A stretch of DNA of 22,654 bases from a virus. The stretch is from positions 1 through 22,654 of the IMG/VR virus record IMGVR_UViG_3300025326_000215; one strand, 5' to 3'. Position numbers and translations under genes: made by a program. The notes beneath the pieces were generated by a model, which made no database searches, was not told the origin of the DNA, and saw only the letters and a program-made list of their open reading frames with translations. Shown piece after piece: positions 1,231 through 22,364 of this stretch (position 1 is its first letter; each line of letters begins with the position of its first letter).

Positions 1231-1231
1231 C

Positions 1232-1792
1232 ATGATCCCGGCCTGCGATGCCTGGGCGGAGATCCGCCGGGCGATTGCGGCGCATCCCCAGAAGGGCTCG
1301 TTCCTGGACGTGGGCGGACGCGATGGACGGCACGCGGCGCTCGCCGAAGGGTTCCGCGATTACACGATCCTCGACCTCGAGCCGCACGGGCTCTATGACC
1401 AGATCCGCGGGGACATCTGCGCGCTCGAGCCGGATCTGCTGCCAGACGGAACCATCGACGTGCTCTTCAGCACCGACCTGCTCGAGCACGTCACCGACCC
1501 GCCCGCCGCCGCGCGGACCATCGGTCGGCTCCTGAAGCCCGGCGGCCTCGCGATCACGCAGACGCTGTTCGCCTGGGACTATCACCCGCGCCCGGTCGAT
1601 TACTGGCGCTTCACGCACGCCGGGCTGGCCTACCTCTTCGAGCAGTACGGCGGGCTCCGTACCGAGCTGGCCGCCTACGATGCGGCGCTGCGTCTCGAGG
1701 ATCTTCGCGGCTCCGGGCTCCTGGACCGCGCCGGGATCGTGCGCCGCCGGCTGGTCAAGCGCAAGGTGCTCCACATTGGGCGGAAACCATGA
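1232..1792 (+). CDS. SAM-dependent class I methyltransferase
   Basis: The 186-aa protein has the class I methyltransferase order. Motif I is FLDVGGRDG (residues 24-32), the acidic end of strand 2 is ILDLEP (D48), motif IV is DVLFSTDLLEHV (76-87), and LLKPGG (100-105) follows. These match the Methyltransf_11-type fold. A later DYWRFT segment (123-128) is common in methyltransferases of polysaccharide and LPS clusters, so the substrate may be a sugar or lipid-linked glycan rather than DNA; that is inference. It starts one base after the portal stop and so is probably co-translated with it. A methyltransferase between portal and capsid genes is unusual. Fold is secure, substrate unknown. Confidence 0.85.
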   Translation: MIPACDAWAEIRRAIAAHPQKGSFLDVGGRDGRHAALAEGFRDYTILDLEPHGLYDQIRGDICALEPDLLPDGTIDVLFSTDLLEHVTDPPAAARTIGRLLKPGGLAITQTLFAWDYHPRPVDYWRFTHAGLAYLFEQYGGLRTELAAYDAALRLEDLRGSGLLDRAGIVRRRLVKRKVLHIGRKP

Positions 1793-1852
1793 TCCGGCCC
1801 GCGCGGCCACCACCCGTCTCCTGACCTTCAAATCGGCCTGTCAACCTTTTCC

Positions 1853-1882
1853 TTGACACACCCTGACAGGTCAGGGTACAGG
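1853..1882 (+). promoter_or_regulatory. Possible sigma70-type promoter
   Basis: A perfect TTGACA box (1853-1858) is followed after 18 bases by TACAGG (1877-1882), which matches only three of six consensus -10 bases. It lies in the one clearly non-coding gap of the window, upstream of the small gene at 1892 and the capsid genes. The weak -10 and unknown host make this tentative. Confidence 0.4.
1860..1877. promoter_or_regulatory. 18-bp inverted repeat, operator-like
   Basis: ACCCTGAC-AG-GTCAGGGT is a perfect inverted repeat with 8-base arms and a 2-base centre, sitting between the TTGACA box and the possible -10. Related half-sites lie nearby: CCTGTCA at 1837-1843, CTGACC at 1821-1826 and a TGACA at 1854-1858, ten bases before the TGACA inside the palindrome. 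This looks like a repressor or activator site. In RNA it would form a 7-bp stem with a CAGG tetraloop. No T-run follows, so it is not an intrinsic terminator. Confidence 0.5.
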
Positions 1883-1891
1883 TAAGGGCGT

Positions 1892-2014
1892 ATGCAACGT
1901 TTGGGCCGTTACCACGCCCGCAGCGTGCGGAAGAACGTCGCCAAGGCCCGCACGTCGCGCTGGGCCGGGGGCACCCGGCAGACCGCGCGGCGGATGCCGC
2001 GGGGCCGACGATGA
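1892..2014 (+). CDS. Small highly basic protein (40 aa)
   Basis: A 40-codon frame starts at ATG 1892, three bases after an AAGGG (1884-1888). It ends in a TGA that overlaps the next gene's ATG (ATGA, 2011-2014). Twelve of 40 residues are arginine and two are lysine, and the C-terminus reads RRMPRGRR. This composition suggests nucleic-acid binding, but I recognise no family. The four-base overlap with the downstream gene and the upstream promoter-like region support it being translated. It is too short for coding statistics to be decisive. Confidence 0.5.
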   Translation: MQRLGRYHARSVRKNVAKARTSRWAGGTRQTARRMPRGRR

Positions 2015-2358
2015 ACGGCGCGACCGGCCCGACTGCGCCCGCGACGACGCCCGCTGATAACTCCGGCCTGCACGTTCGCGGGAAGATCCAGGTCAACATC
2101 GCGCTCAAGACGCTGACGCAGGCCGTGCAGCTCCTCGGCGCCGAGACCGAGGACGGACGAATCGTGCTCGAGGCGCTGGCGAAGCTCAGCAAGCAGTTTG
2201 GCGAGGCGGCGCAGGATCTCACGCGGCAGGAGATCGCGATGATGGCCGAGAACGCCGCGCCCGCGGGGCCGACCCCGGCCGGCGGGATGAGCGACTTCCG
2301 GCAGATGACGCAGCAACGCATGCCCCCGGCGATGATGGCCGGCGGGCCAGGAGGGTAG
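2011..2358 (+). CDS. Hypothetical head-region protein (115 aa)
   Basis: The protein has a low-complexity N-terminus (proline, threonine, alanine), then a predicted helical block around residues 28-75 (IALKTLTQAVQLLG, VLEALAKLSKQFG). It ends in a methionine/glycine/proline-rich tail. Small helical proteins with an 'eGrivlealakLsKqFg'-like block are often found just after phage portal genes, but no function is known to me. It starts by ATGA overlap with the basic 40-aa gene. It could be an assembly factor or minor head protein. Confidence 0.7.
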   Translation: MNGATGPTAPATTPADNSGLHVRGKIQVNIALKTLTQAVQLLGAETEDGRIVLEALAKLSKQFGEAAQDLTRQEIAMMAENAAPAGPTPAGGMSDFRQMTQQRMPPAMMAGGPGG

Positions 2359-2360
2359 TC

Positions 2361-2576
2361 ATGGGTGATGGACTCGTCGGACCGCAGCGCTACCCCATAA
2401 GGGATCCGAAAAGCAACTCGAAGCGCAACGGCCGGATGGTGAATTCGCCCAGGTACGCCGACATGGGCGGCCTCACCGGCCCCGGCAAGCTTCCGGCCGG
2501 CGGCGACTTCGTGCCCGAGGCGCCGACCGGCGTCAAGAGCGCGAAGAAGACTTCGGCACGCAGCCAGGAGGGCTAA
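2361..2576 (+). CDS. Hypothetical small protein (71 aa)
   Basis: This short, hydrophilic protein is rich in Gly, Pro, Lys and Arg, with no hydrophobic core segment, so it is probably disordered. AGGAGG (2349-2354) lies six bases before ATG 2361, a good ribosome binding site. It sits three bases from the preceding gene and just ahead of the candidate scaffold. I do not recognise a family; a minor head component is possible only by position. Confidence 0.65.
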   Translation: MGDGLVGPQRYPIRDPKSNSKRNGRMVNSPRYADMGGLTGPGKLPAGGDFVPEAPTGVKSAKKTSARSQEG

Positions 2577-2579
2577 GCC

Positions 2580-3125
2580 GTGGCGAACGAACAGGTCGAT
2601 ATCCGCGCCGTCCTGATGGAGGCGCTCGACAACGACCCGGAGACGCGGCCGAAGTTCCGGGCGCTCGTCAAGCAGAAGTTCCCGAAGGCGCCGATTCCCG
2701 AGGTTGACCTCGATCAGCGCTTCGAGGCGCACAAGACGGAGCTACGGCAGGAGCTGGAGGCCGAGCGCCTCGCGCGCAAGAAGGACAAGGACGCGGCCGA
2801 TCTGGCCGCCGCCCGCCGCGCCGTCATGGAGGACCCAGAGCTCCGCATCACCGAGGACGAGATCCCCGAGGTCGAGAAGATCATGCAGGATTCGACACTC
2901 GGGCCGATCGCCTCGCACAAGGCGGCGGCCATGCTCTACCGCAGCATGCAGGCCGTGGCGACGCCGCGGCCGTTCGCCCTGACGGCCGACGTGCCCGGGA
3001 TGGGGGCCAGCGCCGAGCAGTACAAGGGCATTCTCGACGACCCGCAGAAGTGGCGGGGCGGCCGGATCGAAGAGATCGTCAACGACTTCCGCAACGGCCG
3101 GGGTCACAAGTGGCCGGTGGCCTGA
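2580..3125 (+). CDS. Candidate capsid scaffolding protein
   Basis: The start is GTG 2580, after a GGAGG (2569-2573). The 181-aa protein is strongly charged. Residues about 44-85 form a long Glu/Arg/Lys/Ala helix likely to be coiled coil, followed by an acidic stretch (ITEDEIPEVEK) and a C-terminal basic, tryptophan-containing helix (WRGGRIEEIVNDFRNGRGHKW). Scaffolding proteins of tailed phages are typically helical, charged, encoded between portal and capsid, and bind coat through a short basic C-terminal helix. Those general features are all present. There is no sequence-specific signature, so the assignment rests on composition and position. The secreted protein and ligase genes separate it from the capsid gene, which is unusual. 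Confidence 0.45.
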   Translation: MANEQVDIRAVLMEALDNDPETRPKFRALVKQKFPKAPIPEVDLDQRFEAHKTELRQELEAERLARKKDKDAADLAAARRAVMEDPELRITEDEIPEVEKIMQDSTLGPIASHKAAAMLYRSMQAVATPRPFALTADVPGMGASAEQYKGILDDPQKWRGGRIEEIVNDFRNGRGHKWPVA

Positions 3126-3147
3126 CATGCAGCAAGGAGGCGCGCCC

Positions 3148-3804
3148 ATGCGTCGGATGATCGCACTCGTCACGTTCACGCTCCTCCTGCTCGGCGCCGC
3201 GGCGCCGGCCCTCGCCCAGGTCCGCGCCCCGGTCGGTCCGGGCGGGCTGCTCTACTGGGACAATGCCACGCGGTCGTATGCCAACGACCGCACGACCCAG
3301 CACAAGCTCCTCGGCCTGCTGATCCCGCCGTCGCTCATGGCGACGCAGCCGGTGCCCAACACCACGAGCATCTGGCCGACCTCCGCGCCGATCAGCGTCA
3401 AGATCATCGGGCAGTTGACCACCCTGACGACCGTGCAGGCCGCGCTCGGCATCAACTACGGCTCCGGCGCGACGCTCTCGCTCATCAACAGCGCCGCGTT
3501 GACGAGCGCGAACGAAGGATTCAGCGACGCGCCCTTTGAGCTGACGGTCTATCTCGTGCCGCTGGCGACGACCTCGGCGACGCCGAACATGGCGAACTCG
3601 CTCTGGATGCAGGCCAGGTTCGCGACCCGTGGGCTGACCAATGCCAACGCCGGCCAGGTCGAATACACGGCGCGCGTGCTGGGGACCTCGGTGCTCGCTT
3701 CCCCGACCGAGTTGAACATCTACTGGCGCTGGCTCGGCGCGGCCGTGACGGGCGGTAGCAGCGTGCTCCGCGTCCACTCGACCCAGGTCAAGATCGGACT
3801 GTAA
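3148..3804 (+). CDS. Secreted protein with Sec signal peptide
   Basis: I prefer ATG 3148 over an in-frame ATG at 3127 because AAGGAGG (3134-3140) lies seven bases before it. This start also gives a classic Sec signal peptide: MRRM, then a hydrophobic core IALVTFTLLLLGAAAP, with an ALA-Q cleavage site near residue 24. The mature part (about 195 aa) is rich in Thr, Ser, Ala and Leu, lacks cysteines and looks like a beta-rich protein (for example TELNIYWRWLGAAV and VLRVHSTQVKIGL near the end). I recognise no family. The beta-rich, small-residue composition resembles capsid decoration or surface proteins, but an exported protein inside a head operon is odd. It could be a periplasmic or surface factor expressed with late genes. 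Confidence 0.75.
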   Translation: MRRMIALVTFTLLLLGAAAPALAQVRAPVGPGGLLYWDNATRSYANDRTTQHKLLGLLIPPSLMATQPVPNTTSIWPTSAPISVKIIGQLTTLTTVQAALGINYGSGATLSLINSAALTSANEGFSDAPFELTVYLVPLATTSATPNMANSLWMQARFATRGLTNANAGQVEYTARVLGTSVLASPTELNIYWRWLGAAVTGGSSVLRVHSTQVKIGL

Positions 3805-3807
3805 GGC

Positions 3808-4968
3808 ATGACGCTCTCCCGCGCCTGGTGGGTGCCGGTGGCCGGGGCGCTGCTCGCGCCCCTCGTCACCTGGCTCCCGATGCTCGCCCACGAGTACCCC
3901 GGGCTCGGGCTGCCCGTCTACGCGCCGCCCATCGGCATCGACCTCTGGCAGAGTCAGGTGTTCTGGGCCGTCGCGTTCGCCGCCGTCGGCGCCGCGCTCT
4001 GGGTCCGTGACCGCTGGCTCGGCGTGCTCCTCTGGCTCCTCGCGGGCAATCTCCTGATCCGCGGCTCGCTCTTCGACGGCTCGCACTTCGCCGTCGTGCT
4101 GTTCGGCGTGCTCGCGCTGGTGGCCCTCCGGCAGACGCCGCGCGTCTGGCACGGGCGCCTGCGCCTGATCCTCGCAGTCTCCGGCATGGTCCAGGTCGCG
4201 TACATGCTCCAGCAGGCGGTGCTCCACTACGATCTCCTCTGGGGGCCGGTGGTAGGCGGCGTGCTCGTCGCCAAGGTGCAGCCGCTCGGCACCCTGGGGA
4301 CCGTGGACGCGGCGAGCGCCTACGTGGCGATCACCGCGCCGCTGATGCCGCTCTGGGCGCTCCCGTTCGGCGTCTGGGCGATCTGGGAAGGGCGCTCGCT
4401 GACCGCGATCGCCGCGTTCGGCGTCGGCCTCCTGGCTCGCTGGCTCATGCAGGAGGACCGCCCGCGCGTGCGCGCTGTCGGCCTCGCGGCGGCGCTCCTG
4501 ACGCTCGGCGGCGCCGTCATCGCGGTCGGGCTCTGGAAGCACGCGGTCTCGCCGACCATCCCGGGCTGGGGCACGGTGACCGGGCGCCTCACGATCTGGG
4601 CCTTCGCGCTCTCCGACTGGTGGACGCAGGGGCTGTTCCACGGCTTCGGGTTGTCCTCCTGGTCGCTCCGCATCCCGATGCTCCAGCAGCAGGCCGGCGT
4701 GCTGCCGAACGGGGAGCTGTGGGCGCAGGCGCATTCCGAGCCGATCCAGGTCGCCTACGAGACCGGCGTCCTCGGGATGGCCGTCCTCGGCGCCTGGCTC
4801 CGCGACCACTGGCGCGCGTGGCAGTCTCCCGCGTGGGGGCCGGCGCTTGGCGCGCTGGCGGTCTCCACGCTTGGCTTCTTCACGTTCCACGTCGTCTCGA
4901 CGGCCTTGCTCGGACTGGTGCTGTTCGGCCTCGCGTCCGCACAGACGGCTGAGGCCCACGGAGGGTAA
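3808..4968 (+). CDS. O-antigen ligase/polymerase-like membrane protein
   Basis: The 386-aa protein has roughly ten hydrophobic segments separated by short charged loops, so it is a multi-pass inner-membrane protein. The C-terminal half carries Wzy_C/WaaL-type features: TGRLTIWAFALSDWWTQGLF followed by HGFGLSSW, then AHSEPIQVAYETGVLG. That last stretch fits the H-[NSQ]-x9-G-x-x-[GTY] motif described for WaaL ligases (H309, S310, G320, G323). Family members join or polymerise undecaprenyl-linked glycans on the periplasmic face. It starts three bases after the secreted protein and stops five bases before the capsid ATG. I know of no head operon with this gene; phage serotype-conversion genes normally lie elsewhere. 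Ligase versus polymerase cannot be settled from sequence. Confidence 0.8.
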   Translation: MTLSRAWWVPVAGALLAPLVTWLPMLAHEYPGLGLPVYAPPIGIDLWQSQVFWAVAFAAVGAALWVRDRWLGVLLWLLAGNLLIRGSLFDGSHFAVVLFGVLALVALRQTPRVWHGRLRLILAVSGMVQVAYMLQQAVLHYDLLWGPVVGGVLVAKVQPLGTLGTVDAASAYVAITAPLMPLWALPFGVWAIWEGRSLTAIAAFGVGLLARWLMQEDRPRVRAVGLAAALLTLGGAVIAVGLWKHAVSPTIPGWGTVTGRLTIWAFALSDWWTQGLFHGFGLSSWSLRIPMLQQQAGVLPNGELWAQAHSEPIQVAYETGVLGMAVLGAWLRDHWRAWQSPAWGPALGALAVSTLGFFTFHVVSTALLGLVLFGLASAQTAEAHGG

Positions 4969-4973
4969 CCACA

Positions 4974-5984
4974 ATGGCTCTGCTCGGCGGAATTTTCTCC
5001 GGGGCATCACAGGCGCAGCAGGACGAGCTGCAGGCCGTCACCCGCTACGCGGCCGTGCCGGCGTGCATCGTCCAGATCTACCAGTTCGACGGGTGGCTGT
5101 CGGCCGCGCTCTCGCAGGCCAAGATGGTCACCGGCGGCATGACGTCGATCGTCGTGCCGGTCCAGGGCGCGCCGCTGACGACGGCCGCGGCCATGGACTT
5201 CACGGGCTCCTTCTCCGCGCCGTCGGGGCAGACCGGGATCAAGCAGGCCAGCGGCGTTCTCAAGGGCGTCATCGTGCCGATCGGGTTCCAGGGCATGGAG
5301 GGCATCATCCAGGACAACGCCGCCCTGATCCCGCTGGTCGAGGCGCGGATGAACGACGCAGGGAACCAGGTGGCGGACTACCTGTCGAGCCAGGCGTGGA
5401 CGAACACGTCCGACATAAACATCAACATCACCGGCTGGCCCGCGATCGGCAGCGCGACGAACACCTACCTCGGCCTGGACCGCACGGTCGAGACCTACAT
5501 GCAGGCGTGCCTCCGCACCGGCGGGGCGATCACGCGGCAGATGATGCTCGCGTCGATCATCGACGGCATGCAGTTCGGCCTCGGCGAGATGCCGAACGTC
5601 GGATTCCTCTCGGTCGGCGACTGGTACGCGCTCGCCGCCGACTTCATCGCGGACGAGACCTATCAGGTCCAGCCCGGGACCGGCTTCGACAAGTCCGAGG
5701 GCCGCGGCGGGTTCACGGCGCTCAGCGTCGCGGGCGTGCCGCATTTCATGAGCACCAGGCTCGCGAACGGCACCGCGTACCACTACAACACGCGCTACGA
5801 CCACATGTACATTCACCAGATGGCGCCGTTCGCGTTCACGGGCTTCGCCTCGACGCTGCCGGCGCTGTCGATCGGCTACATCGGCTGTCTGGTCGCGATC
5901 CTCGAGCACGTCAACGTCAAGCCCCGCACTGTCTGCGTGACCTCGAGCCTGACGGGCGGGATGACGGTCACGGCCGCGCCGTAA
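4974..5984 (+). CDS. Likely major capsid protein
   Basis: GGAGGG (4960-4965) lies eight bases before ATG 4974. The 336-aa protein begins with a helical N-terminus (QAQQDELQAVTRYAAV). A segment IPLVEARMNDAGNQVADYLS follows, resembling the spine-helix region of HK97-fold coat proteins ('...ar.ndag.qva..l'). A mixed alpha/beta, glycine-rich remainder includes GLGEMPNVGFLSVGDWYALA, which fits an A-domain. Length, position after portal and scaffold, and lack of any enzyme motif all fit the coat protein that forms the icosahedral shell. The call is by pattern and context; structure prediction would test the HK97 fold. Confidence 0.7.
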   Translation: MALLGGIFSGASQAQQDELQAVTRYAAVPACIVQIYQFDGWLSAALSQAKMVTGGMTSIVVPVQGAPLTTAAAMDFTGSFSAPSGQTGIKQASGVLKGVIVPIGFQGMEGIIQDNAALIPLVEARMNDAGNQVADYLSSQAWTNTSDININITGWPAIGSATNTYLGLDRTVETYMQACLRTGGAITRQMMLASIIDGMQFGLGEMPNVGFLSVGDWYALAADFIADETYQVQPGTGFDKSEGRGGFTALSVAGVPHFMSTRLANGTAYHYNTRYDHMYIHQMAPFAFTGFASTLPALSIGYIGCLVAILEHVNVKPRTVCVTSSLTGGMTVTAAP

Positions 5985-6001
5985 CGCCGTGGGGAGGTCT
6001 G

Positions 6002-6214
6002 ATGCCCACGACCGGAGCCGTCGCCAGCATCACGGCCGGCGCGGTGAGCCACGCAGTGAGCGCGACGCTGGCCGCGACCTACGAGGTCGGCGGCGCGCCC
6101 TCCTGGCCCACGGCCTGGGGGATCGGTAGCAAGAGCGCCGCGGGCTTCACGCTGACCTTCGCCGCCCCGGCCCCGGCGGGCGGCGCGGTCTTCGACTGGA
6201 CCGCGCGGTGGTGA
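6002..6214 (+). CDS. Single-domain protein, candidate head decoration protein
   Basis: GGGGAGG (5991-5997) lies four bases before ATG 6002. The 70-aa protein is one compact, probably beta-sandwich domain, with the pattern GAPSWPTAWGIGSKSAAGFT then LTFAAPAPAGGAVFDW. The next gene carries the same domain at its N-terminus with about 65% identity (46 of 71 aligned positions by hand). Domains with 'SW.T.W....K...GFT..F..PAPAG...DW' recur in phage structural and bacterial surface proteins. The gene directly after the capsid often encodes a decoration or cement protein, so I infer that role, but nothing in the sequence proves it. Confidence 0.65.
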   Translation: MPTTGAVASITAGAVSHAVSATLAATYEVGGAPSWPTAWGIGSKSAAGFTLTFAAPAPAGGAVFDWTARW

Positions 6215-6428
6215 GATGCCCGTAGCCGGGGCCGTCGCCACGATCCCCGCGGCCGCGACGTCGCACGCGGTCTCGAGCCTCAACCTCTCCACGCCCTACG
6301 AGATCTCCGGCGCGCCCTCCTGGGTCACCGCGTGGAGCGTCGGCGCCAAGACCGCGAGCGGCTTCACGCTGACGTTTGCGGCGCCCTGCCCGGCCGGCGG
6401 CGGCACGTTCGACTGGCTCGCGCGCTAT
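6002..6428 (+). repeat. Tandem domain duplication (diverged)
   Basis: Two adjacent coding copies of a roughly 70-residue domain: copy 1 (6002-6214) is free-standing and copy 2 (6216-6428) is fused to the adaptor. Hand alignment gives 46 identical residues over 71 positions with one gap, so the duplication is old. The best-conserved blocks are GAPSW, TAW, GFTLTFAAP and PAGG..FDW. Confidence 0.85.
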
Positions 6429-7085
6429 CCGTCCGTCTCGGGGGGCGGCACCGCGACGCTGGCCGACTATCTGGCCGAGCTGCGGAGGCTCCTCCACGAC
6501 GAGAACGATAACTTCTGGTCCGCCGCGGACAAGACGGCGTACATCAACGCCGGAATCCAACGCCGCGATCTGGACAGCGGGCAGAACCGCGTGCTCATCA
6601 GCAAGACACTCACCGCGGGGACGGCGCTCTACAACTTCTCCGATCTGAGCAACGACGCCGTGTTCGACGTAATCGGTATCGCGGTCATCAACGGCTCCAC
6701 GCGCATCCAACTGAATCAGTACAGCTACAGCGAGCTGAGCGTGGCCGCGCGGGCCTGGACCACGTATCAGTCGCTGCCGCGCGCCTTCGCCCGCTACGGG
6801 CCGAGCCAGGTCTACCTCGCGCCGATTCCGGTCAGCGCCTACGTCTCGGAGTGGGACTGCTGCGTGTACTCCGATCCGCTCGTGGCGCCGACGGACGTGG
6901 ACCCGCTCCCGTTCCCGTACGTCAAGCCCGTCGCCTACTATGCGGCGTACGAGGCCAAGCTCTACGAGCGCGCGTTCGACGAGGCCGAGGGGTTCCTCGC
7001 GCAGTACCAGCAGCAGCTCCAGGTGGCCCTGACGGCGCGAGTCGGGACGGTGCCGAGTCTCTACAGTGGCGTGGTGCGGGTGTGA
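6216..7085 (+). CDS. Head-tail adaptor with N-terminal duplicated domain
   Basis: Residues 1-71 are a diverged copy of the preceding 70-aa protein. After a short linker (PSVSGGGT) the rest has the pattern of phage neck/head-tail adaptor proteins: LADYLAELRRLLHDENDNFW, then TAYINAGIQRRDLDSGQNR, then beta-rich segments and a C-terminal helix (YAAYEAKLYERAFDEAEGFL). Such adaptors bind beneath the portal and link it to the tail nozzle in short-tailed phages. Adaptors of this kind usually begin at or near the 'L..LL.D....FW.d.el..yIN' block, so the extra N-terminal domain is an addition. It starts one base after the preceding stop. Confidence 0.65.
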   Translation: MPVAGAVATIPAAATSHAVSSLNLSTPYEISGAPSWVTAWSVGAKTASGFTLTFAAPCPAGGGTFDWLARYPSVSGGGTATLADYLAELRRLLHDENDNFWSAADKTAYINAGIQRRDLDSGQNRVLISKTLTAGTALYNFSDLSNDAVFDVIGIAVINGSTRIQLNQYSYSELSVAARAWTTYQSLPRAFARYGPSQVYLAPIPVSAYVSEWDCCVYSDPLVAPTDVDPLPFPYVKPVAYYAAYEAKLYERAFDEAEGFLAQYQQQLQVALTARVGTVPSLYSGVVRV

Positions 7086-7198
7086 GCCGCGGGGGCCCGT
7101 GTCCGCTGTTTCATCCCGGGCCAGGAGACGCGCCCTGTCCGGACGTCTCGTCCGGCACCATGGCGGTCACGAGCCAGCCCGAGCGTAGCACGCCATGA
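7082..7198 (+). CDS. Microprotein (38 aa) filling the adaptor-nozzle gap
   Basis: GTG 7082 overlaps the adaptor's TGA (GTGA), and the frame's TGA at 7196-7198 overlaps ATG 7195 of the nozzle gene (ATGA). Otherwise this interval would be the longest gap in the window (109 bases). The product is rich in Pro, Gly, Ser and Cys, has no hydrophobic segment and matches no family I know. Both junctions have the overlap pattern seen throughout the operon, which is the main support. It could instead be a translational relay whose product matters little, or a chance frame. Confidence 0.5.
   Translation: MSRGGPCPLFHPGPGDAPCPDVSSGTMAVTSQPERSTP
7139..7155. other. Short perfect hairpin
   Basis: CCGGACG-TCT-CGTCCGG forms a 7-bp, G+C-rich stem with a 3-base loop. 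No T-run follows, so it is not a canonical intrinsic terminator. It lies about 40 bases before the nozzle gene and could pause transcription, protect an mRNA end or be an incidental product of G+C-rich sequence. Confidence 0.35.
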
Positions 7199-8751
7199 GC
7201 ATGACGCCAAGGATGTTGCAGCAGCGCGGCGGTGGCGCACGGCGCCCGTCCGCGGGGCCGCGCTGGCAGGAGTTCGAGGCGTTCCGGCGGGGGATGAACC
7301 AGGTCGATGCGCGCACGGCCATCGCCGATGATGAGGCGTACTGGCTCGAGAACATGATCCCGATCGGGGCGGGCGCGCTCCAGGTCCTGAACGGGCCGGG
7401 TGACGCCGTCGCGACCATCAGCGTCGGGATCGCCTCGCTCTGGGGCTTCACGCTGAACGGCGCGCCGGTGCATATCGCGATCAACCGGGACGGCTCGGTG
7501 ACGCAGGTCACGCCAGGCGGGGCGACGACGAACGTCGCGACGGCGAACAGCGTCGATCCGAGCGACGCCGTCTGCACGATCTGGCGCGGCACCACGATCC
7601 TGATCCTCTCCTCGCTCGGCTACGTTTCCTGGGACGGCACGACGTTCACCGTGATCTCGACGACGCAAACCGGCGCCGCGCTCGTGGTGGGGCAGGGGCG
7701 CGCCTGGCTCATCAGCGAGCGCACGATCACCTACACGGCGCCGAACACGTACAACGACTTCACGGCCGGGAACGGCGCGGGCTCGACGATCCTGACGGAC
7801 GAGGCGTTCGACGGGAACGTCGTCGCGGCGGTCTCGGCCCTCGAGCAGATCTGGCTCGTCGGCAACGCCTCCGTGGAGGCGCTGTCGAATGTCTCCTCCT
7901 CCGGGACTGCGCCGAACGTGGTCACGGTGTTCGCCCTGACGAACATCGTCCCGACGATCGGCACGACCTCGCCGCAGTCGCTCCGCGGGTACTTCCGCGC
8001 GCTCACGTTCCTCGCGCCCTACGGGGCCTACGCGCTCTCCGGGGTGACGCCGCAGCAGCTCTCGGAGAAGCTCGACGGCCTGTTCCCGTCCCTGACCATT
8101 GACGACACCGTGTCCGCGTGCGTGGCGATCGTCAAGAACCTCCTCTGCCTGATCTACCGGGTCCAGTACACGGGCCAGGCGCTGGCGAACGGGGCCGGGC
8201 CGATCTCGCTGCTCCTCGTGTTCAACAAGGGCCGCTGGTGCCTGGCCTATCAGGGCGCGGTGACCTGGGTCACGACGCTGATCGTCGGGGGCGTGGCGCA
8301 GGCGTGGGCCACGGACGGCACCACGATCTTTCGCCTGTTCGGCGCGGCGGATACGGTGGACGTGACGGCGAAGATGGTGTCCAAGCTCCACAGCTTCGGC
8401 TCCTCGATGAGCGGCAAGTTCGTGACGCGCGCCGCCGTCGAGGTCGAGTCCTCGCGGCCGATCAGCCCGACGCTGACGATCGACTCGCTCTACAAGAGCG
8501 AGGCGGTCACGCTCACGACCACGGCCGAGCTGACGTGGCAGACGACGGCGGGCGGGATCATCACGTTCATCAACGCGGGCGGGCAGGACCTCGCGTGGCA
8601 GACGCAGGGGCCGACCGCCTCGCGCGTCCGGAGCGCGATGTACGGCACCTACATCGGCTGGACCTATCAAGTCACCGGGCCGCCGCACCGCATCCAGAAG
8701 TTCGCGCTCGAAGTCGTGCCGGCCCGGGTGACGGAGACGAGGCAAAAATGA
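7195..8751 (+). CDS. Tail nozzle/hub protein of short-tailed phage
   Basis: The 518-aa protein opens with a basic, disordered stretch. A segment then reads FRRGMNQVDARTAIADDEAY and WLENMIPIGAGALQVLNGPG. This 'G.N......i.d.EA.wleN..p...G.L....G' layout is typical of podovirus nozzle proteins (P22 gp10 / T7 gp12 functional class), which form the lower tail tube and plug DNA. The body consists of repeated beta strands consistent with a propeller, such as AVCTIWRGTTILILSSLGYV and ALEQIWLVGNASVEALS. It lies directly after the adaptor and before the fibre-like gene, as expected. Length fits the class. Subfamily is not resolved. Confidence 0.65.
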   Translation: MSMTPRMLQQRGGGARRPSAGPRWQEFEAFRRGMNQVDARTAIADDEAYWLENMIPIGAGALQVLNGPGDAVATISVGIASLWGFTLNGAPVHIAINRDGSVTQVTPGGATTNVATANSVDPSDAVCTIWRGTTILILSSLGYVSWDGTTFTVISTTQTGAALVVGQGRAWLISERTITYTAPNTYNDFTAGNGAGSTILTDEAFDGNVVAAVSALEQIWLVGNASVEALSNVSSSGTAPNVVTVFALTNIVPTIGTTSPQSLRGYFRALTFLAPYGAYALSGVTPQQLSEKLDGLFPSLTIDDTVSACVAIVKNLLCLIYRVQYTGQALANGAGPISLLLVFNKGRWCLAYQGAVTWVTTLIVGGVAQAWATDGTTIFRLFGAADTVDVTAKMVSKLHSFGSSMSGKFVTRAAVEVESSRPISPTLTIDSLYKSEAVTLTTTAELTWQTTAGGIITFINAGGQDLAWQTQGPTASRVRSAMYGTYIGWTYQVTGPPHRIQKFALEVVPARVTETRQK

Positions 8752-9944
8752 GGCGCTGGGGACTCGCCGCACTGCTCGTCGTCGGACTGCTGACGCTGCT
8801 GTTCCGGCCGCCCGCGCTCCTCGGCCAGTCGGGCGGGCCGTTCATTCGCGCGACGTGCTCGCAGATCAACAGCCCGACGACGGGCGAGTCGGTCTGCTTC
8901 AACTCGACGCGCGGCGAGTGGCAGACATGGACCGGCAGCGCGTGGGTCGCGATTTCCGGGGCCAGTAACAGCGTCATGAACGGCGTGCTGTTCGTCACGG
9001 CGACCGGCACGACGACGAACGCCGGGTTTCTGTTCGACGGGACCAATCTCTTCCTCCCCTCCGGCGGCGTCGTCAACTGGGCGAACGGTGACGTGACGCT
9101 CACCCACAGCGCCAATGCCCTGACGCTCGCGGGCGGCCCCCTCCTCCTCCCCGACGGCACGGCAGCGGCGCCGAGCGTGGCACGAGACACCGACCCGGCA
9201 ACGGGAATGTATTTCCTTGGGACGGTGCCCAATACTGTGCTTGCTTTTGCCACAGAGGGCGTACAACGGCTAACCATCTCAGCTACTGTTACCACTTTCG
9301 ATGCTCTGCGAATGGGAATCAGCACTGGAGACGTCTGGCTCTCTCGCGCCGCCGCCGGCCACGCGAAAGTCACGACGGATGGGAGCACGCTGGGGACGTG
9401 GAGCGCCTCGGTCCTCTACGCCGATGGGGCCAAGGTCACCGCCGGCTCGGGCACGGGCGTCACCGTCAACGAGACCGCCACCGTGCGATCGGTCGTCTAC
9501 AAAGTGACCGTCCTCTCGACCAACTGCATCGCCGCCGCCGTGACCTGCGATCTCACCATCGCCACACTCCCGGCCAAGACGTTCCTCAAGAGCGTGTTCG
9601 TGGACCTCACGACGACCTACGCCTGCACCGCGACCTGCACGACCGCGACGCTCTCGGGCACGCTCGGCACGACTGCGGGCGGCACGCAACTGCTGGCCTC
9701 GATGGACCTCGACGCCGCGACCACGCAGTTCGGCGACGCGGACGCGGAGCTCGGCGCCACGATGAACGCCGCCGCCCGGAGCGCGAACGGCGCGCTGTTC
9801 AACGGCGTGCTGATGTCGTGGAGCGCGACGACGACGGTGACGTACCGGATCACGAGCGGCACGGGCAACCTCGGGGACGGGGCGGCGACGAACCTGAGCC
9901 AGGGGGCGATGGTGTTCTACCTCGTCACGGAGGTGTTCCCATGA
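8748..9944 (+). CDS. Tail fibre/spike-like protein with N-terminal signal/anchor
   Basis: The ATG overlaps the nozzle stop (ATGA). Residues 1-27 form a signal peptide or anchor: MRRWG, the hydrophobic core LAALLVVGLLTLLF, then PPALLGQ. The body (398 aa in all) looks fibre-like: CFNSTRGEWQTWTGSAWVAI, LTHSANALTLAGG, and APSVARDTDPATGMYF followed by TEGVQRLTIS, a block common in phage fibres. The C-terminal part is threonine-rich with several cysteines (for example YACTATCTT). Fibres normally recognise the host receptor, but export signals are not expected on them. Bases about 9190-9340 are clearly less G+C-rich than the flanks, suggesting a swapped segment. It could be a secreted surface protein built from fibre modules. 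Confidence 0.65.
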   Translation: MRRWGLAALLVVGLLTLLFRPPALLGQSGGPFIRATCSQINSPTTGESVCFNSTRGEWQTWTGSAWVAISGASNSVMNGVLFVTATGTTTNAGFLFDGTNLFLPSGGVVNWANGDVTLTHSANALTLAGGPLLLPDGTAAAPSVARDTDPATGMYFLGTVPNTVLAFATEGVQRLTISATVTTFDALRMGISTGDVWLSRAAAGHAKVTTDGSTLGTWSASVLYADGAKVTAGSGTGVTVNETATVRSVVYKVTVLSTNCIAAAVTCDLTIATLPAKTFLKSVFVDLTTTYACTATCTTATLSGTLGTTAGGTQLLASMDLDAATTQFGDADAELGATMNAAARSANGALFNGVLMSWSATTTVTYRITSGTGNLGDGAATNLSQGAMVFYLVTEVFP

Positions 9945-10225
9945 TCCGCTGGGCGCTCGCCGTGCTGCTGCTGGCCGCGCCCGCCTGGGCCGGCTCCTTC
10001 ACGATCACGACGACGCCCGAGCAGGACCGGGCGCTCGCGGCGCGCGCGACCCGCGAGGGCATCACGGTGGAGGCGCTGGTGCGCGGACACGTGCTGAATG
10101 GCCTCGTGAATCCGGCGCGCGCCGCGCTGGAGCAGCAGCGCGAGCGGACGTACCGCGAGAAACTCGACGTCTTGCCGCCCGCCACGCGCGCGCGCGTCCT
10201 GCAAGAGCTGGGCGTGAGCGAATGA
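9941..10225 (+). CDS. Small secreted protein, phage fibre-neighbour type
   Basis: The gene overlaps the preceding stop (ATGA). MIRWALAVLLLAAPAWA is a classic Sec signal peptide with an AWA-G cleavage site near residue 17. The mature 77-aa part begins FTITTTPEQDRALAARATRE and is otherwise helical. Small phage proteins with a 'FTITTTpEQD.AL...A...g' start are common next to tail-fibre genes, usually without a signal peptide as far as I know, and have no known function. The signal peptide therefore looks like an addition to a standard cytoplasmic phage module. Role unknown. Confidence 0.7.
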   Translation: MIRWALAVLLLAAPAWAGSFTITTTPEQDRALAARATREGITVEALVRGHVLNGLVNPARAALEQQRERTYREKLDVLPPATRARVLQELGVSE

Positions 10226-10434
10226 TGAGGCGGCCCGGGCTGAGGCTCCTGCTAATCGCGCTCCTCCTGGTCGGGTGCGCCGCGCCAGCGTGGCAGAAAG
10301 CGCCCGTCACCGAGACGCCCTACGACCAGCAACTCGACGAGCTGAACGCGCAGCTCTGCAAGGAGCGCGGCGGCCAGTGGGTCCGCGTCGATCCCGGCGG
10401 GCGGTGGGACTGCCTCGTCGTGAACCGGCCATGA
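10222..10434 (+). CDS. Small lipoprotein (70 aa)
   Basis: MMRRPGLRLLLIALLLVGC is a lipoprotein signal with lipobox LVGC (Cys19). The mature protein is only about 52 residues and contains two more cysteines (QLCKERGG and WDCLVVNRP) that could form a disulfide. Alanine after the lipidated cysteine suggests outer-membrane sorting in a diderm host. It overlaps both neighbours by ATGA. It is too poor in proline for a typical Rz1 spanin and far from the lysozyme. It could block superinfection or anchor a partner at the cell surface, which is speculation. Confidence 0.7.
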   Translation: MMRRPGLRLLLIALLLVGCAAPAWQKAPVTETPYDQQLDELNAQLCKERGGQWVRVDPGGRWDCLVVNRP

Positions 10435-12062: not shown

Positions 12063-13529
12063 ATGGCTGACAGCCTCTTCGGTGATCTCGGCCTGGACGA
12101 GCAGACTCCGACCGTGCTCGACTTCCTCGGGCAAGAAACTCCCCTCGCGTTTCGTGCGGAGCCCGCGCTACCGACTGGCGGCCCCGTGGCCGGTGGCACC
12201 GCACCCGCAACGGTGGCCGGCGAAGGCACGACCGCGGCGGGTGAGGCGGCGGCCGGCGCGGCGGGGGGGTTGCTGCGTCGCGGCGGTGCTGAGGGTGACA
12301 GCGCGCTCCAGTCAATTCTGAGGGGACTCGACGTCGCGTCGGACCCGACGATCAGGGATCTCATCGCGAAGATGCTCTCCGGGGGAGGACCACCCGGTCT
12401 CACGATGGACCAGTTGTTTGCCGACTTCCCGCAGACGATCATCGGGCCATCCGGGCTCGGCCCGGGAGACATCGACCTCGCCACGGCCGCCGAACAGGGT
12501 TTGACAGGGGCGGAGGGCTGGTCGGGGTTGTCGGGCTCCTCCATCCTGCCGTACCTCGGTGCCGTCGGTGCTGGCCTGTCGAGCGGTGGCGAGTTCCCTG
12601 CGGCCGGCGCGGCGCAGATGGAACTCATCAATCTGCTGGCGACGTACTTCGGTGGCGGGGTCCCGGGGCTCTCCATCGCGACGGGTGTTGCGTCCGCGTT
12701 CGCGCCGAAGATCTTCGAGTCCAAGCCGTCGTCGCTCCAGAAGAAGCAGGCGAACACGCAGTTCGCCTCCGACCTCGGCAAGCAGATGATCGTCGATCTG
12801 CAAGAGGCGACGACGCCGGAGGAGCTGGCGCAGGTGCTCCAGTCCTACAGCTCCGGCCAGTACCCGGTGACGTTCCGCTCGGTCCTGGGCGGGGAGAACG
12901 TGCCCACGGTGGACCTGGACCAGATCCTCGGCCCGGACTTCAATGTCGGCGTCGAGGGCATCAACACAGGCGACCTCGGCGGGCAGATCGGGCCGTCGAT
13001 CGCCAACATGGTCCGGTACAACGCGCAGCTCCTGAAGGCCGCGCAGGCCGGGGACCCGGAGGCGGTGGCGCAACTCCAGGGGCGCACCGCGCAGAAGGCG
13101 CGCTACCAATCCGGGATCAAGGCGATTCAGGACGCGGGCATTCCGCTCACGCAGGAGATGCTCCGCGGCATCTACCTGAATGCGATCGGGGACAACGCCT
13201 TCCCGTTCACCGACCGGGCCGGGGCGCTCCAGCGCGTCTCGGAGACGAACCTCATGGATCCGACGCTGGCGGGGCCGGCGTTCGCGGCGCTGAACGCCAT
13301 GGGCGTCCCGATGCCGGCGGGCCAGCGCACGGCGGCCGAGACTCTGGCGCGCACGGCGGTGGGCTCGGCGGCCGGCGGCTTCACGGGTCCCGACGTCGAG
13401 CGCGCCCTGCGGGAGTACCAGACGGCGCTCGGGGCCACGGAACGCGCGGGCACGGAGGGCCTGTCCTGGGATCAGGCGCTCGAGGCGCAGCGGGCGTGGG
13501 AGGATCTGATGCGGTCGGGGAGCGCGTGA
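12063..13529 (+). CDS. Candidate internal virion/ejection protein 1
   Basis: I chose ATG 12063 because AGGAGG (12053-12058) lies four bases upstream. A longer frame from TTG 12012, which overlaps the previous stop, would add a hydrophobic segment (LTGLLALLLAGG) that looks like another signal. The 488-aa protein has an acidic start, an alanine/glycine-rich low-complexity stretch (residues about 38-72), glycine-rich hydrophobic stretches (GAVGAGLSS; GVASAFAPKIF) and a helical C-terminal half with repeated charged helices. Podovirus ejection proteins share these general features (large, Ala/Gly-rich, helical, encoded after tail genes) and form a channel across the cell envelope. No homologous motif is visible; the role is inferred from position. 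Confidence 0.5.
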   Translation: MADSLFGDLGLDEQTPTVLDFLGQETPLAFRAEPALPTGGPVAGGTAPATVAGEGTTAAGEAAAGAAGGLLRRGGAEGDSALQSILRGLDVASDPTIRDLIAKMLSGGGPPGLTMDQLFADFPQTIIGPSGLGPGDIDLATAAEQGLTGAEGWSGLSGSSILPYLGAVGAGLSSGGEFPAAGAAQMELINLLATYFGGGVPGLSIATGVASAFAPKIFESKPSSLQKKQANTQFASDLGKQMIVDLQEATTPEELAQVLQSYSSGQYPVTFRSVLGGENVPTVDLDQILGPDFNVGVEGINTGDLGGQIGPSIANMVRYNAQLLKAAQAGDPEAVAQLQGRTAQKARYQSGIKAIQDAGIPLTQEMLRGIYLNAIGDNAFPFTDRAGALQRVSETNLMDPTLAGPAFAALNAMGVPMPAGQRTAAETLARTAVGSAAGGFTGPDVERALREYQTALGATERAGTEGLSWDQALEAQRAWEDLMRSGSA

Positions 13530-13807
13530 TGGCCTGGACAGACAAGCCGCTCCAGCGCATCAAGGATAGCCGGCAATACCCGATCGTCGAGATCACATGG
13601 CGCGATGCTGCGTGCTACGGTGGCTGGGACTGGGTCGCTCCCTATCGCAAGAAGGGCACGAAAGAGTGCCGCAGTGTTGGCCGCCTGATTCGAGCCGACC
13701 GCAAAGAGCTTGTGATTGTCCAGAGCATTGATGCTGAAGGTCGGGTCTCCGACGGGATCAGCATCCCGCGTTCCTGGACAAGTCGCGTGAGGCGGCTCCG
13801 TGCTTGA
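13529..13807 (+). CDS. Hypothetical small protein (92 aa), lower G+C
   Basis: It starts by TGATG overlap at 13529. The protein is short and basic. It contains IVEITWRDAACYGGWDW, a pattern ('V.V.W.DA....GW') that recurs in small phage and bacterial proteins of unknown function, and VGRLIRADRKELVIVQS, a likely beta pair. The coding sequence is noticeably poorer in G+C than its neighbours, suggesting separate acquisition. It interrupts the run of large internal-protein genes. Confidence 0.65.
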   Translation: MAWTDKPLQRIKDSRQYPIVEITWRDAACYGGWDWVAPYRKKGTKECRSVGRLIRADRKELVIVQSIDAEGRVSDGISIPRSWTSRVRRLRA

Positions 13808-14141
13808 TCCGATCTTGATCGCCTCGGTCCCGCACCGGAACCTGACCGCGTTCCGGGACCTCAGCGGCACCATCGAATCCATGCACCGGGCGATCGCCCA
13901 AGCCGCCTTCGGGCTCACCGGGACGGCCTACCGCATCCTGCCACTGGGGGACGGGCGCGGGGACGCCTCCTGGCTCCAGGCGCTCCAGGCCCAGCACGAG
14001 GCGGCGGCGCAGGCCCTCAGCCTGACGCCCCCGGCGGACCTCTCGTCCTACGATCTGCGGGAGGCGGACCAGTGGGCGAGCTTTACATGGGTGCTCTCCC
14101 AGGACCTAATTCGCTTGCGGGACGCGGCGGGGGTGACCTAG
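13800..14141 (+). CDS. Hypothetical helical protein (113 aa)
   Basis: GTG 13800 begins eight bases before the previous stop, with a GAGG about ten bases upstream. The protein is mostly alpha-helical (for example TIESMHRAIAQAAFG and LQALQAQHEAAAQALS), without hydrophobic membrane segments or cysteines. No family is recognised. The helical, alanine-rich make-up is like the neighbouring candidate internal proteins, so it may be a small virion component. Confidence 0.6.
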   Translation: MLDPILIASVPHRNLTAFRDLSGTIESMHRAIAQAAFGLTGTAYRILPLGDGRGDASWLQALQAQHEAAAQALSLTPPADLSSYDLREADQWASFTWVLSQDLIRLRDAAGVT

Positions 14142-14205: not shown

Positions 14206-14949
14206 ATGGCCTGGTGGGACATCGGCGGTGACCTGACGAACCTCGCACAGCGCGCGTTCGGCTCCACGCCCGAGGCCGGCTACTACATCGCGGCGCCGGC
14301 CGCAGCCGCTGCGGCGCCAGCGTCAAGCGGTGGGTGGTGGGACAGCCTCAAGAGCTTCCTCACGCCGGTCGGCGAGGGCCTCCAGGCGGCCGGCGGTGTC
14401 GCTAAGGCCGTCTCCCCGCTCGTCAATCTCGCGACCGGCGCCATGGGCATCTACGGCGGCGTCAAGGGCGCCCAGCAGCTCGCGGAGCAGACGAAGATCG
14501 CCCGGGAGTCCCAGCGGACGGGGCAGCGGATGGCCGAAGGGGCAGCCGGCGCGGCGGCCCCGCTCGTCGGCTACGGCAAGGAGCAACTGGCGCTCGTTGA
14601 GGCGGGCAAGCTCCCCGAGTCCATCGAGTCCGAAATCGCCCTCTGGATTCAGGGCGCCAAGCAGCGGGCGCGCGACTTCTACGCGCGGATCGGCCAGGGC
14701 GACTCGGACACGCTCCGCACGATGGAGGATCTCATCGACCAGCGGGCGATCAGCATGCGCGCCGCGGCGCTCCAGGACCAGGCGCGGCTCGGGATCGGCT
14801 CGCTCTCGTCCGGGGCCGGGGCCTACGGCACCGGGGGAGGCATCGCGGGGCAGGCCGGGGCGACGGCGACGGCGCAGGGGCAGAGCATCGAGGAATTGAT
14901 CCGACAGGCGAACGAGGCCATGGCGGCGCTGAGTGGCGGAGCGGCTTAA
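14206..14949 (+). CDS. Candidate internal virion/ejection protein 2
   Basis: The 247-aa protein has an N-terminal tryptophan-rich segment (MAWWDIGG) and an alanine-rich linker (YYIAAPAAAAAAPASSGGWW). A glycine/alanine-rich hydrophobic helix follows (LVNLATGAMGIYGGVKGAQQ), then long polar helices (QQLAEQTKIARESQRTGQRM). It ends in a glycine-rich tail. Small-residue hydrophobic helices next to polar helices are typical of membrane-inserting phage ejection proteins. I see no catalytic motif. It lies among other candidates of the same kind; the function is inferred. Confidence 0.5.
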   Translation: MAWWDIGGDLTNLAQRAFGSTPEAGYYIAAPAAAAAAPASSGGWWDSLKSFLTPVGEGLQAAGGVAKAVSPLVNLATGAMGIYGGVKGAQQLAEQTKIARESQRTGQRMAEGAAGAAAPLVGYGKEQLALVEAGKLPESIESEIALWIQGAKQRARDFYARIGQGDSDTLRTMEDLIDQRAISMRAAALQDQARLGIGSLSSGAGAYGTGGGIAGQAGATATAQGQSIEELIRQANEAMAALSGGAA

Positions 14950-15197
14950 TGCGGCTCCTGATACTGACGAGAGATATGGATTTCCCGGGTCAGAAGCTAC
15001 CCGAATGCTTACGGGCGGAAGATATCCAATTTGTCGTGCCGATTTCGACAAACGAGGTGCTCGCAGAAGATACAGCAGCGCCACGTGCTGTCGTAGAAAG
15101 AATCAGGGGTGCCGGGCTCTCGCTAGCTCAAGAGTACGAGAATACCGCGGGGGGATGGCTTATCGATGCGGGAACGCTGCCTGGGGCCGACGAATAA
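14949..15197 (+). CDS. Hypothetical protein (82 aa), foreign base composition
   Basis: It starts by TAATG overlap with the previous gene and ends by TAATG overlap with the next. The sequence starts MRLLILTRDMDFPGQK and has a beta-alpha flavour with acidic surface residues. Codon use differs sharply from neighbours (ATA, TTA, CTA, AGA and ATT codons; clearly lower G+C), which points to recent acquisition. No family is recognised. It could be a 'moron' carried by the late operon. Confidence 0.65.
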   Translation: MRLLILTRDMDFPGQKLPECLRAEDIQFVVPISTNEVLAEDTAAPRAVVERIRGAGLSLAQEYENTAGGWLIDAGTLPGADE

Positions 15198-15463
15198 TGG
15201 CCCGCATCTCGAACGCCGACTTCGGACAGATGTTGGAGGAGGAACGCGCCACCATCGGCTACCCCTTCGCAGTCGCGTTCAGCGAGGACGAGCCGACGTG
15301 TCCAACGTGTCGCGGCGTCCGCTGGGTCTCACGGGAGGCCGACTTCCTCGTGTTCTACAAGAAGGCGCTGCAATCGGTCGTCGAGGAGCCCGAGCAGGTC
15401 CGCCCCATCCTGCGCATGATCCTGCGACGCGAGAAGGCGGCGCTGGAGCCGGTCGATGGCTGA
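15197..15463 (+). CDS. Hypothetical protein with CPTC motif (88 aa)
   Basis: It starts by TAATG overlap. The N-terminus is helical (FGQMLEEERATIG). A CPTC pair (Cys35, Cys38) followed by RGVRWVSREADF could be half of a zinc site or a redox pair, but no second cysteine pair exists, so a dimeric zinc site or no metal are both possible. The C-terminal half is charged helix. It overlaps the next gene by eight bases. Confidence 0.65.
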   Translation: MARISNADFGQMLEEERATIGYPFAVAFSEDEPTCPTCRGVRWVSREADFLVFYKKALQSVVEEPEQVRPILRMILRREKAALEPVDG

Positions 15464-17003
15464 CACCGCGATGATCCCGTGGTCTCCCGAAGTCCTGGAG
15501 GGCGCGCAGCCCGTCCAGCCCGCGCAGGCGTTCTCGCCACTGACTGACGTGGCGCAGGCGATTCCGCAGATCAAGGCGAAGCAGGCCGAGTTGCAGCGCG
15601 CCCGTGACGCCGAGCAGGCGACGCTCGCCGCCAGCGCCGCCGCGCAGCGCCCGAAGATCGAGGCGGCGCAGACGGCGCTCGCGCAGCCGATGCCGACGCC
15701 GCCGACGGCGCCGCCGATCACCGAGCCGCCATCGCGCGGTCTGACGCCCTTCCTCGCGCCCATCGACGGGGAGCCCGCAGAGACGAGCATCGCGAAGCTC
15801 CTGCAAGGGATCGGCCTGCTCGCCACCGGGATCAGCGGGTTCGCCCGCGGCGATGCCCGCGCGGCGCTCGCGTCGATGCAGGGCGCCCTCACGGGCTGGC
15901 AGGCCGGGGACACGATCCGGGCGGATCGCCACTTCGCCGACTGGAAGGCCGCGACCGACGCGATGCTCGCCAAGTGGGACGTTGAGCACAAGACATACAA
16001 GGACCTGATGGAGCAGCGCGGGAAGTCGGTAGAGGAATTGCTGACGGACGCCAAGCTCGAGGCGCTGAAGCAGGGGAACGAGACGGCCGTGGCGGCGTTC
16101 GCCAGCGGGAGCGTCGAGAAAGCGCTCAACTTCCTGACGCAGCAGCAGACTCACGGGGACGCGGTCATGCTCAAGACCGCGCAACTCGCCGCCGCGGACG
16201 CCTCGCGCAAGACCACCGAGGCGATCCGACTCCAGGGCCTCGACATGCAGCGCGAGGGGACCGCGCAGCGAGAGCGTGACGTGGCGCGACGGGAGCGCGA
16301 GGAGACGTTCTATCACGACCTCCTGACGCGCTTCGGTTTCGGGGGGCCGGCGCCGACGGGAACTGGTGCGCCGAGCGCGGGTCCGTCCAGCCTAGCCACG
16401 CCGAGCGGCGCCGTCATGGAGCCGCCGACCGTCTCCGTGGGCAAGGGCGGGATCGGCCTGCAATTCGAGCCGCGCAAACTCGGCGAGCAGGAGAAGACGG
16501 CGCTCAAGACCTACGACGCGATCCTCGCGACCGTCAACGAGCTGAACGAGTTCAAGGCGCCGGAAATCGCGCAGTATGTCGGGCTGATGAATCGCCCCGT
16601 CCAGGAGGCGAAGCGCTGGATTCCAGGGCTCGCCAGTGACCGTTACGAGCACTTCCGCTCCATCGTGATGCGGCTCAAGAGTTCAGCATTCGGCGAGGGC
16701 GGCAAGCAGTTGACGCCATTCGAGTACGGCGTCGTCTCCGGCTTCACGCCGACGGGCGATGAGCCGAGCATTGAAGCCTTCCTCCAGAAGGTTGGCGGTC
16801 TGCGCCGCTTCACCACGATCAGGCGGAACCTCGTTGCCTACTATTCGCGGCAGGGCATCGACGCGAGTCAGGTGCCGGAAACGCAGTGGGATCAGGCCAT
16901 GAAGCTCGGTCTGGGCAGCGTGCCGACGGGTCCCACGGCGGGTCCCACCGTCCCCGAGCGCTGGGAGCGCGGGCCTGATGGCACGCTCCGGAGGATCCCA
17001 TAG
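15456..17003 (+). CDS. Candidate internal virion protein 3, coiled-coil
   Basis: The 515-aa protein has an N-terminal helical region (IPQIKAKQAELQRARDAEQA) and a proline-rich linker (MPTPPTAPPITEPPS). A glycine/alanine hydrophobic helix comes next (LLQGIGLLATGISGFARG), followed by long charged helices with coiled-coil character (residues about 160-290) and a folded C-terminal region of about 200 residues rich in aromatic and charged positions. The overall layout matches large ejection or internal proteins of podoviruses, which are stored in the head and cross the envelope with the DNA. No lytic or nuclease motif is visible. Assignment is by architecture and context. Confidence 0.5.
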   Translation: MADTAMIPWSPEVLEGAQPVQPAQAFSPLTDVAQAIPQIKAKQAELQRARDAEQATLAASAAAQRPKIEAAQTALAQPMPTPPTAPPITEPPSRGLTPFLAPIDGEPAETSIAKLLQGIGLLATGISGFARGDARAALASMQGALTGWQAGDTIRADRHFADWKAATDAMLAKWDVEHKTYKDLMEQRGKSVEELLTDAKLEALKQGNETAVAAFASGSVEKALNFLTQQQTHGDAVMLKTAQLAAADASRKTTEAIRLQGLDMQREGTAQRERDVARREREETFYHDLLTRFGFGGPAPTGTGAPSAGPSSLATPSGAVMEPPTVSVGKGGIGLQFEPRKLGEQEKTALKTYDAILATVNELNEFKAPEIAQYVGLMNRPVQEAKRWIPGLASDRYEHFRSIVMRLKSSAFGEGGKQLTPFEYGVVSGFTPTGDEPSIEAFLQKVGGLRRFTTIRRNLVAYYSRQGIDASQVPETQWDQAMKLGLGSVPTGPTAGPTVPERWERGPDGTLRRIP

Positions 17004-21987: not shown

Positions 21988-22364
21988 TGTGTACGCTCGC
22001 CGAACCCTGCGGGGGCCAAGTCATGCTCGACCGGGAGCATCTTGCGCGCGCCGCCATGGATCTCGACCTCCCGATGGAGGACGTCATCGCCCAGGCCAAG
22101 GCGGGCCGGCTGGCCATCCCGCTGCTGTTCCACTGCACGGGGAGCGGGCATACGTTCAGCCTCGCGCCCACGCCGACCCGGCCGCGGCGCGGGCCACGCT
22201 TCGTGCCGGCGTGCGCGATCTGCGGGCGCCCCGTGGTCACGAACATTCCGCAGGGGGCGCGCCGGTATCATGCCCGATGTGAGCTGGAGGCGGGCCGGCG
22301 GCGCGCGAGAGGCTGGCGACCCGGCCCACGCGAGTATGTCGATCTGGAGGGGCGCGCCTTGTGA
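21987..22364 (+). CDS. Zinc-finger-like hypothetical protein (125 aa)
   Basis: It starts by TGATG overlap; ATG 22023 is an alternative. The N-terminal half is helical (MLDREHLARAAMDLDLPMED). The C-terminal half has CAICGRPV (Cys76, Cys79) and YHARC (His95, Cys98), a treble-clef-like zinc site, plus an arginine-rich tail (EAGRRRARGWRPG). It probably binds nucleic acid or protein. No nuclease motif is visible. Confidence 0.65.
   Translation: MCTLAEPCGGQVMLDREHLARAAMDLDLPMEDVIAQAKAGRLAIPLLFHCTGSGHTFSLAPTPTRPRRGPRFVPACAICGRPVVTNIPQGARRYHARCELEAGRRRARGWRPGPREYVDLEGRAL

Follow-up and report, generated by a model that had tools for sequence, protein, structure and literature searches.

A short gene of low G+C content, found between two conserved genes of an uncultured tailed phage, is likely to be an accessory (cargo) gene that came from a source of lower G+C and that resides in a variable slot of the phage genome. 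The gene encodes 82 amino acids and belongs to the window, i.e., the whole 22,654-base virus record analysed here, which is part of the phage genome. The features of the window to which we refer below are as follows.

13529..13807, + strand: second low-GC gene, 92 aa, with a weak match to PHROG 25889 (E 1.6e-4)
13800..14141, + strand: conserved 113-aa gene of the same block, with homologues in relatives
14206..14949, + strand: conserved left flank, 247 aa, with homologues in the relatives L010, L114, and L118 and, by iterated HMM, in more distant records
14947..14951, + strand: TAATG stop/start overlap from the 247-aa gene to the 82-aa ORF, one shared base (stop TAA of the 247-aa gene at 14947-14949)
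14949..15197, + strand: putative ORFan cargo gene, 82 aa, low G+C (0.558), acidic product, called from the ORF, its composition, and coding statistics (ATG at 14949, stop TAA at 15195-15197)
15195..15199, + strand: TAATG stop/start overlap from the 82-aa ORF to the 88-aa ORF, one shared base (ATG of the 88-aa ORF at 15197)
15197..15463, + strand: second slot tenant, an 88-aa ORF with a single CxxC, GC3 0.88 (normal), from the ORF call
15456..17003, + strand: conserved right flank, 515 aa, with homologues in 15 distinct relatives

Composition, coding signal, and setting of the 82-aa ORF

The first-pass annotation had called the gene compositionally foreign, and this was borne out by three measures. 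Its G+C content was 0.558, compared with 0.696 (69.6%) in the window, and no 249-bp stretch of the window, sampled every 10 bases, was lower. GC3 was 46/83, compared with a pooled 0.898 in the 27 other ORFs (binomial p ~8e-16), and the codon fit to the window usage was the worst among the 39 ORFs scored (-0.60 bits/codon). The second-worst fit (-0.41) belonged to 21989-22364, whose frame is doubtful as the length scored is not a multiple of three. A milder low-GC outlier was the gene at 13529-13807 (GC3 65/93; p ~9e-8), separated from the 82-aa ORF by two genes. Our search found no relatives of this gene, and the equivalent junction of L010, L114, and L118 has no counterpart of it; there, the 113-type gene is directly overlapped by the gene preceding it. 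The resemblance of this preceding gene to the 505-aa product of the window is weak (E 2e-6 in L114 and 0.004 in L118), and in L010 the assignment is by position only.

The TAATG overlaps reported for both ends of the gene are present (14947-14951 and 15195-15199). However, overlaps of this sort are usual in the window: 18 of its 27 listed junctions overlap, and as the start is a placeholder in 3 of these, the number is at least 15. The TAATG joins are ordinary here and are not special evidence for a gene. Other statistics suggest that the 82-aa ORF is probably a real gene. Of first-order Markov sequences with equal make-up, 2.5% keep an 82-codon frame open. The G+C fractions at its three codon positions were 0.67, 0.45, and 0.55, with GC1 exceeding GC2 (56 versus 37 of 82; Fisher p 0.004), and the ordering GC1 > GC3 > GC2 is expected of a coding frame at moderate G+C. 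In residue composition, scored against the 14 larger ORFs of the window, the 82-aa frame ranked above the five other frames, and only 0.03% of shuffles matched or exceeded it. It is highly improbable that this is not a gene, with the stretch being untranslated or the true coding frame being a 176-aa +2 frame (14933-15463). The latter is open over the entire 82-aa stretch, but its GC2 and GC3 there were 0.68 and 0.45, and its residue score was -22, compared with +9.9 for the 82-aa frame; we rejected it as the coding frame on the GC2/GC3 order and the poor residue score.

The window encodes a major-head-type protein (PHROG 9953, E 6e-6), an SU10-type adaptor, and a phage lysozyme (19840-20253), and the 82-aa ORF lies in a same-strand chain, downstream of the capsid and adaptor genes and upstream of the lysozyme gene. 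It had been placed between internal-protein genes, a description we could not sustain: no family match shows the flanks to be internal virion proteins, and the direct downstream neighbour is the 88-aa CxxC ORF, which has a weak zinc-ribbon match below the Pfam cut-off and is itself followed by the 515-aa gene. Between 13400 and 15700, a search with the sigma-70-type consensus found no promoter-like site, and a single terminator-like site was on the other strand and at chance level. An Rfam search gave no match. No repeats were found at the borders of the 82-aa gene, and a mobile element with terminal repeats was rejected on this ground.

Other genes on these contigs had informative matches. 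A methyltransferase-domain protein (Methyltransf_23, E 3.6e-15) is encoded at 1232-1792 of the window, upstream of the capsid gene. O-antigen-ligase-like (Wzy_C) proteins, scoring just below the Pfam cut-off, were found at 3808-4968 of the window and at L124:2575-3672, one of them directly upstream of the capsid gene, and a DegT-type aminotransferase was found at L123:16728-17693; these hint that the phage (or contig G001) carries surface-polysaccharide genes. Two matches to virion proteins lie at the left end of contig G001 (L123:1061-4177 and 7092-10352), one to a tail protein (PHROG 376, E 6e-163) and one to an internal virion protein (PHROG 6651, E 7e-28). They lie ~30 kb upstream of the capsid gene, on a contig identical to the left part of the window, and may belong to the window phage or to another phage. 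No tRNA was found in L123, L124, L010, or L118.

The junction between the 247- and 515-type genes in relatives

We gathered distant relatives via the capsid protein, with a listing of 80 of at least 576 relatives, and via alignments of the neighbouring genes, with which 23 loci were searched as whole records. Iterated HMM searches were run over stop-to-stop ORFs of at least 60 codons in 112 loci, and start positions were then inspected. The slot was scored only in contigs with a detectable 515-type gene. L018 and L111, being one record (G007), were counted once, and overlapping stretches of the same contigs (L008, L009, L100-L103, L105-L107, L109, and L119-L121) were not counted apart; L027 and L045 were kept although they are cut inside the 515-type gene at the stretch end.

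The 515-type gene was found in 15 distinct relatives across the 112 loci, with some assignments (e.g., L012, L027, L045, and L116) resting on iteration. The slot was empty in 12 of the 15, the 515-type gene directly following a larger gene of 332-480 codons. Its first possible start lay -44 to +14 nt from the previous stop, and in L011, L012, and L112 the junction was a one-base stop/start overlap. The left gene of these 12 was recognised by HMM in 4 (E 5e-4 or better after iteration), weakly in 1 (E 0.037), and by position only in 7. In the three closest relatives the slot was occupied by other small genes: a single 49-aa hydrophobic ORF in L010 (IMG/VR 3300045936_000038), which keeps the 113/247/515-type order; four small ORFs in L114 (VBID01000050.1), a phage-like contig from a Chloroflexi genome bin; and five in L118 (3300009012_000007). 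From their sequences, these other tenants look like hydrophobic-segment or CxxC mini-proteins.

The first-pass annotation had proposed a comparison of relatives for presence or absence of the gene, and the outcome that it named as refuting, a gene of matching composition in every relative, was not observed. The 82-aa protein had no match at E<=10 among the stop-to-stop ORFs of at least 60 codons in the 112 loci, including the 15 relatives with the flanking gene, and the slot ORFs of L010, L114, and L118 matched neither it nor the 88-aa ORF. In a tree of the 515-type proteins, which has long branches and modest support and is indicative only, the window and the three occupied relatives fell on one side of a branch with support 88/85 (88% of bootstrap trees), as one group nested among the empty-slot phages, and the window grouped with L114 and L118 (98/96). 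In the simplest history, the two genes would have adjoined ancestrally, and the occupied clade would have gained small genes, the content turning over.

The pair L114 and L118 resolves one such change to the base. L118 has 203 extra bp in the slot, amounting to one complete 68-aa ORF between a 66-aa and a 38-aa gene. Identity between the two contigs is 82.8% in a 908-column block to the left of the indel and 85.2% in 210 columns to its right, and their flanks align up to a TGA present at both indel borders, leaving the flanking genes intact. One-gene exchange at stop/start overlaps thus occurs in this phage group, because L114 and L118 differ by a gene-exact indel at a TGA junction. The pair does not tell the direction, being compatible with gain or loss. 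The added ORF differs little in G+C from its two neighbours (0.594 versus 0.617 and 0.641), and the other slot genes of L114 and L118 likewise differ little in composition from the flanks. A further difference is a 57-aa ORF that L114 (reverse complement 7162-7335) has, and L118 lacks, between its 113- and 247-type genes, and the last slot gene differs in length as well (81 versus 49 aa, related over 33 residues).

Origin of the gene

The view that a cargo gene has been fitted into the chain is supported by the composition, the lack of a match in the 15 relatives, the 12 empty slots, and the gene-exact indel in L114/L118. The gene would have been acquired from a source of lower G+C into a site that varies between two conserved genes, those of the 247- and 515-aa products. 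It would bring no signals of its own and would be transcribed with the surrounding same-strand operon, its product being made by translational coupling or re-initiation at the TAATG overlaps, and exact exchange between stop and start codon would spare both flanking proteins. We infer late expression with the operon because the gene sits between the capsid/adaptor genes and the lysozyme gene; translational coupling, gain rather than loss, and recency are inferred likewise. No donor of the gene was found. While the cargo part of the earlier claim held, its "recent" derives from composition only: four IMG/VR contigs (L002-L005) that are 99.99-100% identical to the left part of the window (1-9916) end at 7.2-9.9 kb, before the slot. 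The ending of all four in that range may mark a hard-to-assemble or variable spot.

Two other histories have to be weighed. The gene may have been long resident in the lineage, its composition reflecting constraint or weak codon selection. We consider this unlikely, as GC3 was 0.55 compared with 0.90 in the pooled neighbours while the adjacent 88-aa ORF had 0.88, and as L114 and L118, the nearest relatives on the tree, had no match to the 82-aa protein; on the other hand, no closer relative spans the slot, ORFans evolve fast, and composition alone is a weak clock. More improbable still is that the ancestor of the occupied group had the gene and that L010, L114, and L118 have lost it. Exact one-gene indels in either direction are what the L114/L118 pair displays, but this history requires at least two losses and leaves the foreign composition, and the slot is empty in 12 more distant records.

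Beyond the likely acquisition of the 82-aa gene as cargo, we tentatively suggest that the 247/515-type junction is a clade-specific plug-in slot, in which small genes lacking signals of their own may be swapped exactly between stop and start codons. Stop/start sequence shared over 3-5 bp (TAATG in the window, TGA in L114/L118) might help this exchange, and a fast-changing accessory set would inherit the operon's expression at once.

The product and comparison with known systems

The 82-aa product is acidic (14 D/E versus 7 K/R; pI 4.4) and lacks hydrophobic bias (GRAVY -0.05). No informative match was found in Pfam, NCBIfam, or the PLSDB plasmids (best E 0.1 in the latter), and the best matches in PHROGs and PDB sequences had E 0.089 and 0.95, respectively. 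PADLOC gave no match, which tests little, its models being of defence and not anti-defence. Eleven pattern stretches returned no relatives from IMG/VR, a search by exact peptide patterns that reaches only close relatives. The protein was also absent from 400 genomes of the phylum of G024 (0/400; the window record itself was recoverable) and from six related virus records searched whole (0/6), although neither search had a known positive, so that their emptiness says little. INPHARED gave matches in 33 records (best E 0.4; in a small local set, E 1.7e-4), most of them from the group of Salmonella phage chi. We took these as chance, since the match is antisense to an annotated gene and lies in an open stretch that lacks a start codon ahead of the match and through nearly all of it. 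The AlphaFold2 model, made without an alignment, was too poor for searching by fold (pLDDT 51.8, pTM 0.35), and Foldseek found nothing in the PDB at E<=0.001 (best E 0.88). Genes of this kind are expected to lack homologues, and the lack decides nothing in either direction.

The suggested anti-defence or host-takeover function thus found no support, with no homologue, no usable fold, and a position that is not in an obvious early region. Such a product would be an acidic soluble inhibitor binding a host enzyme, which is compatible with a cargo origin. Being small, acidic, an ORFan, and apparently acquired, the protein has traits common to many anti-defence and takeover inhibitors. However, it lies downstream of the capsid and adaptor genes and ahead of the lysozyme gene, late for takeover, it lacks a homologue or fold match, and its fellow tenants look to be of the hydrophobic-segment or CxxC kind; we regard this reading as doubtful. 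Its probable late expression suits early takeover less well than a late role, whether host-directed or virion-associated. The leading candidate, to which we tentatively give an even chance, is an accessory factor directed at the host cell in the late phase of infection, with the smaller share of that chance falling to anti-defence or takeover proper. A product without selected function is possible but less likely, and a virion-associated or ejected protein is less likely again.

Phage morons are described as segments that one genome carries and a related genome lacks, typically consisting of an ORF together with a promoter and a terminator (PMC3029335), and as often being of odd base composition (PMC2266997). 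Classical morons are further expected to be expressed outside the phage's own operons, often from the prophage. Like them, the 82-aa gene differs in base composition and lies between genes that adjoin in relatives (12 of 15, with the left gene assigned by position only in 7). Unlike them, it overlaps both neighbours by one base, and no promoter or terminator of its own was seen. We therefore rejected a classical moron, because the overlaps leave no room for such signals. Closer parallels, from mycobacteriophages, are two ORFans inserted at gene boundaries, Island3 gene 68 (85 residues) and Brujita gene 65 (PMC3029335). There too, one phage has a small product without homologues that a close relative lacks, and the exchange lies near gene boundaries with the neighbours intact, although the gene-exact indel was seen here in L114/L118 and not for the 82-aa gene itself. 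A 60-bp repeat is common to Island3 gene 68 and its neighbour, and both events lie near the right genome end, whereas no border repeat was found for the 82-aa gene, which lies between conserved genes downstream of the capsid genes. The orphams of Microbacterium phages such as ValentiniPuff and Hendrix (PMC7302621) are likewise relative-less genes between conserved virion genes. They differ in phage group and site, and Hendrix has 40 ORFs between its terminase and portal genes, compared with 1 to 5 small ORFs in the slot here. In a narrow look at the literature we recognised no description of this phage group or slot, and we make no claim of its absence from print.

The 82-aa gene is thus probably a boundary-inserted phage ORFan of a known kind that is common in phages, and its insertion by itself is an ordinary kind of event. 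What the locus adds is a view at base resolution of how a phage operon with tight overlaps can take up small genes and stay intact. It also points out a slot of an uncultured phage group; the tenants of this slot, the acidic 82-aa protein and the CxxC and hydrophobic-segment mini-proteins, are candidates for accessory functions.
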